From NCBI GenBank assembly GCA_947476555.1, contig CANJRI010000003.1, positions 22,536 through 86,535 on the forward strand: 64,000 bases of DNA, written 5' to 3'. This DNA comes from Caulobacteraceae bacterium. Its GTDB lineage: Bacteria; Pseudomonadota; Alphaproteobacteria; Caulobacterales; Caulobacteraceae. Positions 12,772 through 15,940 of this stretch are shown piece by piece; within the stretch, counting starts at the first letter, position 1, and every line of letters begins with the position of its first letter. A model generated the notes under the pieces. It saw nothing but the letters and a program-made list of their open reading frames with translations, did not search any database and had not been told where the DNA came from. The translations under genes were made by a program, and so were the position numbers.

Positions 12772-14169
12772 CTACCCGTACAAACGCTCGAACACCGCCG
12801 GCAGGCTGTCGGGCAGGCCGAGCAGCGGCCCTGACGACAGCAGCAGCACCGCCTCAGCGCCCGAAAGGTCGCCCAACGCCGCGGTCACCTCTTCCGCCGA
12901 CCGGCGCCCCTCCGTCGCGACCCCCGTCGCCCCGACCCTCTCCAGGATCTCCTCGAAGCTCGACTGGTCGTGGCTGGCCGCGCCATACGCCGGCGGCGGG
13001 ATGACGATCACCCGCGCCGCGCCGTCGAACACCGTGTCGTACCAGGAGAGCGCCTCGCGATTGCGCCAGGAAAAGGTGTGCGGCTCGAAGACCACCGTGA
13101 GCGGCCGCTCGGGATAGTGCAGCCGCATGGCCTCGATGGCCGAGCGGGCCTTCTCGTAGGATGAGCCGAAACCCTCGATGAGCGGGATGGAAGAGCCCGG
13201 CGCCAGCCGGTCCAGGCGCCGGCGGATCCCCGCGAACCTCTCGACGCCGGCGGCCAGCGCCGCCTCATCCACCAGGCCACGTTCCAGCAGGTAGGCGGCG
13301 ACCCCGACGATGTTCTCGATGTTGTGCTCGCCCAGCAGGGTGGTCGCGAGCGCCAGCCGCCGGCCGTCCGGCCCAACGAGGGTGAACCGGCTGGTCTCTC
13401 CGAAGCTGACGCCTTCCGAATACCAGCCGTCGCAGGGCGCGGTGTCGTACCAGACGAGGCGGCAGCCCGCCTCGCCGGCGATGGCGCGGATCGCCGGATG
13501 GTCGCGGGCCACCAGCAGGCCGTCAGCCGGCAACAGACGCATCAGCTCGCCGAACGGCTTCTCGTAGTCGGCGAAGGTGGGGAAGACGTTGACGTGGTCG
13601 TGGATCAGCGAGGTCAGCAGCACGTCCCGGGGGTGGTAGACCACGAACTTCGAGCGCGGGTCGGCCTCGGCGATGATGTACTCGTCACCCTCCAGCACCA
13701 CCTCGGGCGCGCTGCCCCAGTGGCCGGTGTCGGGCAGCGAGGGGGAGATGGCGCCCACCATCCAGCCGACGTCGCGCCCGGCCTGGCGCAGGACCTGGGC
13801 CATCAGCGCCGTGCAGGTGGACTTGCCGAAGGAGCCCGCCACCACCGTGTTCAGGCGGGCGGCCGTGGCCTCTCCCACCATCTCCGGGAAGGTCGTGACC
13901 CGCACCCCGCGCCGGCGCGCCTCCACCACCTCCGGGTTGGCCTCGCCGCCCAGCTTGGCGCTGGCCCCCAGCACCAGGGCGTCCAGGTGTTCCGGCAGAT
14001 TGGCGGCGTCGAACCGGCGGAAGAACGGGAATCCGAGCCCCTCCACGTAGGTCGACATCGGGGGGAAGACGTCCTGGTCCGAGCCGGACACATCCGCGCC
14101 GGCCTGGCGCATCATCAAGGCCGCGGCCGCCATGCCCGCGCCGGCGATTCCCGTGAAATGGATGCGCAT
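12772..14169 (-). CDS. mpl: UDP-N-acetylmuramate:L-alanyl-gamma-D-glutamyl-meso-diaminopimelate ligase
   Basis: MRIHFTGIAGAGMAAAALMMRQAGADVSGSD; Mur ligase ATP motif AGSFGKSTCTALMA; LIEGFGSSYEKARSAIEAMRLHYP. Confidence 0.92.
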   Translation of the reverse strand: MRIHFTGIAGAGMAAAALMMRQAGADVSGSDQDVFPPMSTYVEGLGFPFFRRFDAANLPEHLDALVLGASAKLGGEANPEVVEARRRGVRVTTFPEMVGEATAARLNTVVAGSFGKSTCTALMAQVLRQAGRDVGWMVGAISPSLPDTGHWGSAPEVVLEGDEYIIAEADPRSKFVVYHPRDVLLTSLIHDHVNVFPTFADYEKPFGELMRLLPADGLLVARDHPAIRAIAGEAGCRLVWYDTAPCDGWYSEGVSFGETSRFTLVGPDGRRLALATTLLGEHNIENIVGVAAYLLERGLVDEAALAAGVERFAGIRRRLDRLAPGSSIPLIEGFGSSYEKARSAIEAMRLHYPERPLTVVFEPHTFSWRNREALSWYDTVFDGAARVIVIPPPAYGAASHDQSSFEEILERVGATGVATEGRRSAEEVTAALGDLSGAEAVLLLSSGPLLGLPDSLPAVFERLYG

Positions 14170-14394: not shown

Positions 14395-14470
14395 TCCCGG
14401 ATAGCTCAGTTGGTAGAGCAGTCGGCTGTTAACCGACTTGTCGCAGGTTCGAGTCCTGCTCCGGGAGCCA
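14395..14470 (+). tRNA. tRNA-Asn (GTT), CCA encoded
   Basis: Acceptor TCCCGGA/TCCGGGA, anticodon stem-loop GTCGGCTGTTAACCGAC, GGTTCGAGTCC T-arm, GCCA end. Confidence 0.95.
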
Positions 14471-14471
14471 T
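14457..14471. repeat. left direct repeat TGCTCCGGGAGCCAT (3' end of tRNA-Asn), putative attL
   Basis: Exact 15-bp match with 15476..15490. Confidence 0.85.
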
Positions 14472-14743
14472 CGAGGCGAATAGGGCTCGCGCGTCACACG
14501 CGCCCTAGATCGCGCGCGGGTTTGCGGCCTAGGCGTAGGAGCAAGCCGACGCCGTCGGCCCGCAGGGCCTCGGAAAACCTGGCCGAATCACCGCGTCCAC
14601 GTCGGATCGGCTCGCCCCCCTGGTCAAGAATGCGCCCTGAGCATCTCATGCTAGCGGGAGGCTGAAACTCGTAGGCCGCGCCAAGCCAAAGGGTGTGCCG
14701 ACCGCCGGCTAGAGGATGGTTGGCGTCGGTGATAAGGGACGGC

Positions 14744-15475
14744 ATGCGCTACCCCAGCTTCCGGATCGACTCCCACTACGGGGTCAAGCAACCCGAGTTC
14801 AACTTGGCTGTTCAGGCCTTGGTCAAGGCCTTGGAGGATGACCGCGGCGTGTTCATCGCGGACAACCTGATCACCTTCGGCCGGAACCTCGGGTTTCTGG
14901 ACGACGAGCCCTTGATGAAAGCATGGAAAACCCACTGCGAGGGCCGGGAACGCGCCGTGCTGTGGCGCACCGCGAACCTCGCCTGGGCCGCCCGACACGC
15001 CGCCCGGTTGGAGGGAGATTTCGTCGAGTGCGGCGTCTTCAGGGGCGTGACGGCCAGTATTGTCGCCGACCTCGTCGACCTATCCGGCCGGACCTTCTGG
15101 CTTTACGACGCCTTCGGCGATGTACCCGGACAGAAGACCCTGGAAGGGATGCATGAGGGTCGCGAGGCGGAGGTCCGCGAGAGGTTTGCCAACATGCCGC
15201 AAGTGAAGGTTATCAAGGGGATCGTGCCGGATAGCTTCGCCCAAGGCCTGCCCGACAAGGTCGCCTTCGCGCATATCGACATGAACAATCCGGATCCGGA
15301 GATCGCAGCGCTGGAGGCCCTGGCGACCCGCCTCGTTCCGGGCGCGGCCATCGTGCTCGACGACTACGGCTGGTTTGCCTACGGCAAGCAGTTCTTGGCC
15401 GAGCGGGACTGGTTTGCGGCTCGGGGCCGCTCGGTGATGGAAATGCCAACTGGCCAGGGGTTGGTAATCTGGTGA
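14744..15475 (+). CDS. TylF/MycF-like class I SAM-dependent methyltransferase
   Basis: GDFVECGVFRGVTASIVADLV, TFWLYDAFGDVPGQ, AFAHIDMNNPDPEIAALEAL, GAAIVLDDYGWFAY. Confidence 0.8.
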   Translation: MRYPSFRIDSHYGVKQPEFNLAVQALVKALEDDRGVFIADNLITFGRNLGFLDDEPLMKAWKTHCEGRERAVLWRTANLAWAARHAARLEGDFVECGVFRGVTASIVADLVDLSGRTFWLYDAFGDVPGQKTLEGMHEGREAEVRERFANMPQVKVIKGIVPDSFAQGLPDKVAFAHIDMNNPDPEIAALEALATRLVPGAAIVLDDYGWFAYGKQFLAERDWFAARGRSVMEMPTGQGLVIW

Positions 15476-15490
15476 TGCTCCGGGAGCCAT
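15476..15490. repeat. right direct repeat TGCTCCGGGAGCCAT, putative attR
   Basis: Identical to 14457..14471; begins right after the TylF-like stop codon. Confidence 0.85.
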
Positions 15491-15499
15491 GGTGACTCC

Positions 15500-15940
15500 C
15501 TACCAGACCCCAACGTTCGGCGCCGACGCCCAGGGCTCGGCCGGTGGTAGAGCATCTCCCATCTGCAGCAGTTCGATCGAGATGTTGTCCGGCGAGCGGA
15601 CGAAGGCCATCCGCCCGTCCCGCGGCGGCCGGTTGATGACCACGCCGGCGTCCTTGAGCCGCTGGCAGACCGCGTAAATGTCCTTCACCGCATAGGCCAG
15701 GTGGCCGAAGTTGCGGCCGCCCTCATAGGCTTCCGGGTCCCAGTTGTGGGTGAGTTCGACCATCGGCGCCTGGCCCTCGCGGGCCGCCGCCTCGTCGTCC
15801 GGCGCGAAGAGGAACACCAGGGTGAAGCGGCCGGCCGGGACGTCGCGCCGCGACACTTCCTTAAGCCCCAGCTTGCTACAGTAGAAATCCAACGAATCCG
15901 CCAGATCGGTCACGCGAACCATGGTGTGCAGGTATTTCAT
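15500..15940 (-). CDS. gloA: lactoylglutathione lyase / VOC family protein
   Basis: MKYLHTMVRVTDLADSLDFYCSKLGLKEVSRRD...VELTHNWDPEAYEGGRNFGHLAYAV...GRMAFVRSPDNISIELLQ. Confidence 0.85.
   Translation of the reverse strand: MKYLHTMVRVTDLADSLDFYCSKLGLKEVSRRDVPAGRFTLVFLFAPDDEAAAREGQAPMVELTHNWDPEAYEGGRNFGHLAYAVKDIYAVCQRLKDAGVVINRPPRDGRMAFVRSPDNISIELLQMGDALPPAEPWASAPNVGVW

Follow-up and report, generated by a model that had tools for sequence, protein, structure and literature searches.

How does the 3′ end of a transfer RNA (tRNA) gene come to be repeated immediately behind a methyltransferase gene? The question was raised by a 64,000-nucleotide stretch (hereafter, the window) from a Caulobacteraceae genome (assembly GCA_947476555.1, contig CANJRI010000003.1), a fragmented, metagenome-derived draft of 114 contigs and 2.56 Mb, near relatives of which carry the name Phenylobacterium in public collections. 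Here, a complete tRNA-Asn is followed by a TylF-like methyltransferase gene (tylF), and the 15-base-pair (bp) sequence TGCTCCGGGAGCCAT, composed of the final 14 bases of the tRNA-Asn plus the next base, occurs in two exact copies on the same strand, one at the tRNA end and the other straight after the TGA stop codon of tylF (Table 1). Both had been pointed out in an earlier sequence-only reading, and both were recovered by exact matching. That reading also put the unit at ~1,019 bp, which holds when one repeat copy is counted, whereas the repeats themselves lie 1,004 bp apart. We propose, with a probability of roughly two in three, that the two repeats are the scar left when a tyrosine integrase inserted DNA at the 3′ end of tRNA-Asn, and that the integrase and most of the inserted DNA were later lost.

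The repeat pair and integrase-bearing elements at the same tRNA

No further exact copy of TGCTCCGGGAGCCAT was present in the window or, by exact search, in the whole draft genome. As a control for chance, we counted the mirror image of the two-fold degenerate 14-mer in 101 genomes of the genus; the 16 matches correspond to ~2e-8 per position and strand, which puts the chance of finding a 14-mer copy on the same strand within 1 kb at an estimated ~2e-5; for an exact 15-mer copy it is lower still. These counts argue against a chance match, and against a short copy of the tRNA end produced by template switching without an integrase, as does the fact that the copy is the exact tRNA end, with a 5′ boundary common to the repeats of two mobile elements (see below). 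Although the repeat is only 15 bp long, the originating scan covered many sites and the end of tylF coincides exactly with the repeat, we consider such an origin quite unlikely. An assembly chimera, to which a draft in so many contigs might be prone, is highly improbable, given that 15 bp is shorter than the word length on which assemblers usually join and that the mpl and gloA genes flanking the unit stand in an order conserved in the genus.

Two other tRNA-Asn insertions that come with an integrase were found, in the genomes designated G101 and G040. Specifically, G101 (contig L288) carries a 5.5-kb insert between tRNA-Asn and a DedA-like gene, with a 414-amino-acid integrase and the 15-bp repeat GGAGCCATCGAGACC at both ends, which the window repeat overlaps. 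This island also contains several small open reading frames (ORFs). On the gloA contig of G040 (L037) is the end of a prophage-like element, in which a 411-amino-acid integrase on the minus strand has a single TGCTCGGGGAGCCACCG repeat 146 bp upstream, and a complete tRNA-Asn is located beside mpl on another contig (L315); because the tRNA and the gloA end are separate, we infer the insertion across the contig break. At 46% identity to each other, these integrases share PF13356 (Arm-DNA-bind_3), PF22022 (Phage_int_M), and PF00589 (Phage_integrase), a layout that we take to be P4-type.

Additionally, a contig from IMG/VR (L343) encodes a 64%-identical integrase with TGCCCGGGGAGCCA, the 3′ end of a tRNA-Asn variant present in the genus, ~180 bp upstream in the same orientation. 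The window repeat, the G040 repeat, and the L343 phage core all begin at the same tRNA base, the phage match being one base longer; in the window, this first base sits in the T-stem, three bases ahead of the acceptor strand. Searching IMG/VR for the 15-mer returned 38 matches, none of them near a tRNA gene or a G040-type integrase, and these look like chance.

With integrase-bearing elements at it in both G101 and G040, tRNA-Asn is a real attachment site in Phenylobacterium. Because the same tRNA end is found at the G101 and G040 elements and on L343, we read the window repeat as the scar of tRNA-directed integration from which the integrase is gone, and the enzyme responsible was most likely of the P4 type, which is present at this tRNA elsewhere in the genus. 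In this scenario, a tyrosine integrase would have inserted an element at the 3′ end of tRNA-Asn, restoring the tRNA gene while a 3′ piece of it came to lie beyond the inserted DNA. Subsequent loss of the integrase and of most of the inserted DNA would have left an intact tylF between the presumed left and right attachment sites (attL and attR). The insertion step is supported by the repeat and by the neighboring species; the loss of the integrase and of most of the insert is what we infer.

Turnover of the tRNA-Asn to gloA interval

The order mpl, tRNA-Asn, gloA, hlyD is kept in many relatives, and the interval between tRNA-Asn and gloA could be measured in 63 other Phenylobacterium genomes, where it ranged from 34 bp to 14.6 kb. 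It was near-empty (34-72 bp) in nine species, none of them closely related to the window lineage, and otherwise filled by unrelated ordinary genes, most commonly a DedA-like gene (15 genomes), followed by short-chain-dehydrogenase-like genes, aldo/keto-reductase-like genes, and others (gene names are from reading the sequences). Conservation of tylF and both repeats in all relatives had been named in the sequence-only reading as the pattern at odds with integration; we found tylF at this locus in the window genome only, where amino-acid identity to the relatives compared reached no more than 77% across the gloA, hlyD, and mpl products. Apart from the integrase-linked sites, no measured interval contained a tRNA 3′-end repeat of at least 11 bp. 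The interval is a hotspot of ordinary gene turnover, and because this turnover nearly always leaves no tRNA repeats, exchange here is mostly not tRNA-directed integration.

The tRNA itself also varies. In G129 (L302 1467-1729), two complete tRNA-Asn genes stand in tandem, 187 bp apart; in G004, matching copies are located on two contigs (L317 and L071); and in G037 (L049 13870-13945), tRNA-Asn is inverted relative to mpl and gloA, which suggests a small local inversion.

The window repeat might, then, be the relic of a tandem tRNA-Asn, the second copy having stood before gloA until tylF arrived by ordinary recombination and erased all but its last 14 bases. The duplicates in G129 and G004 are in keeping with such an origin, as are the ordinary genes that swap at this locus without repeats, but tandem copies were confined to a remote part of the genus, and the break would have to coincide exactly with the first base of the integrase-linked repeats seen in other species. 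We regard it as unlikely.

Integration followed by loss fits a locus that is variable and near-empty in nine species, and a tRNA end targeted by two integrase-bearing elements; the remnant of a larger island, one of two possibilities raised by the sequence-only reading, agrees with these same features. Several observations nevertheless weigh against it. The distal repeat directly adjoins tylF here but is separated by ~150 bp from the start of the integrase in G101 and G040, and no integrase remnant was detected in the unit by tblastn with the integrases of G040, G101, and a contig of the window genome, C49. Moreover, the trailer TCGAG, which often succeeds tRNA-Asn in the genus, is found behind the proximal copy, a misfit because a simple insertion would have displaced the original trailer to the distal copy; in a comparison asking whether both flanks might be diverged copies of the TCGAGACC trailer, they matched at 6/10 and 7/10 bases. 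Finally, the predicted empty junction, TGCTCCGGGAGCCATGGTGACTCC, with 10 bp from the tRNA to the gloA stop, would be shorter than any near-empty interval seen and was present in none of the relatives compared.

The tylF gene and the interior of the unit

Table 1. Features of the window at and around the tRNA-Asn repeat pair.
Feature	Position	Strand	Basis
Mpl-like Mur ligase (mpl), conserved left neighbor	12772..14169	-	PF08245, PF01225; synteny
tRNA-Asn (anticodon GTT), complete, presumed integration target	14395..14470	+	ARAGORN
Proximal 15-bp repeat TGCTCCGGGAGCCAT, presumed attL core	14457..14471	+	Exact match
Stretch of 272 bp between tRNA and tylF without recognizable gene	14472..14743	.	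ORF list, tblastn
AAGGGA, probable ribosome-binding motif of tylF	14734..14739	+	Read from sequence
TylF-like S-adenosylmethionine (SAM)-dependent methyltransferase, 243 amino acids, intact, only gene between the repeats	14744..15475	+	PF05711, relatives' alignment
Distal 15-bp repeat TGCTCCGGGAGCCAT, presumed attR core	15476..15490	+	Exact match
Glyoxalase family gene gloA, conserved right neighbor	15500..15940	-	PF00903; synteny

The description of the unit as one complete gene without an integrase was borne out. The tylF product matched PF05711 with 45.8 bits, against a curated cut-off of 23, and is full length, aligning end to end with its relatives, several of which share the same last residue. 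Among the matches listed, the gap ahead of tylF had no similarity to the compared loci. Composition does not mark the unit, its G+C content of 64.7% being ~1 standard deviation below the mean of the 1-kb stretches of the window.

The product is a predicted SAM-dependent methyltransferase. Its relatives are at other loci that are not tRNA-Asn sites, the nearest of them being from Phenylobacterium (~50-56% identity), and comparisons of the tylF unit with plasmids (at the DNA level) and annotated phages (at the protein level) gave no match. The window genome has three more TylF-like copies (L326 2504-4060 and L327 5290-5922), two of which are fused in one open frame, while the other, next to NeuB- and PseG-like genes (again named from reading the sequences), is interrupted by a TAG. 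Because the paralogue on L327 adjoins these genes, the substrate may plausibly be a surface sugar, although this is only a guess.

The second possibility raised by the sequence-only reading was a minimal non-autonomous cassette, with tylF between two att sites, inserted and excised by an integrase acting in trans. The perfect repeats, the intact gene, and the circulation in the genus of integrases that use tRNA-Asn are compatible with this, but the wider searches gave it no positive support. In the 101 genus genomes and ~300 genomes of the order, we found no further short unit with TGCTCSGGGAGCCA or TGCCCSGGGAGCCA at its ends, the search being confined to these two repeat variants, from which tRNA ends in other genera may differ; the only other close same-strand repeat pair is the two complete tRNA genes of G129. 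No G040-related integrase was detected in the window genome. The short integrase on C49 (L328) was considered as a helper and rejected, as it comprises the catalytic domain only and shows no detectable relationship to its counterpart in G040. With the tylF relatives at unrelated loci and the phage and plasmid comparisons negative, we judge a trans-mobilized cassette improbable. The more specific proposal, that such an integrase-less, single-gene unit of 1 kb, flanked by perfect attL and attR, is genuinely transferable and moved by the P4-type integrases of resident phages, is at least as improbable; if true, single genes could be acquired at tRNA sites in a manner resembling integrons.

Relation to known islands and meaning

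Integration followed by loss places the window unit beside known tRNA-borne islands. The Islander approach recognizes islands by a tRNA-plus-fragment signature and rejects candidates below 2 kb or without an integrase (PMC4383910). Like those islands, the window has a complete tRNA followed by a 3′ fragment in the same orientation, with a repeat that starts close to the junction subsite, near the T-stem/acceptor junction, described for tRNA integrases (PMC4383910); unlike them, the unit has no integrase and falls short of the size requirement of at least 2 kb. With the G101 and G040 elements it shares the tRNA, the neighborhood, and an overlapping repeat (with the same 5′ boundary in G040), whereas those elements carry, in addition to their integrases of 411-414 amino acids, other genes, and the two ends of the G040 element are on separate contigs.

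A closely comparable repeat is that of the Klebsiella asn-tDNA islands, at 17 bp including the final 16 tRNA bases, where several island types likewise use one tRNA (PMC4891358). However, GIE492, an example of these, is ~22 kb long, has an integrase, and has been shown to excise (PMC4891358), while the window unit is a single-gene unit of 1 kb without an integrase, known from sequence alone. Our literature search found nothing on the tRNA-Asn site in Phenylobacterium, the sole related match concerning dusA.

Taken together, the window unit is a real feature and most likely an integration remnant, left by a virus-like element. Insertion directed by a tRNA is an ordinary kind of event, and the unit adds a modest instance of a process already known. 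Nonetheless, the tRNA-Asn between mpl and gloA is now documented as a site of gene turnover and integration with two integrase-bearing occupants, and the window unit suggests that a unit bounded by repeats can persist as a single-gene scar even when it is too small for the usual filters and lacks the integrase they require.
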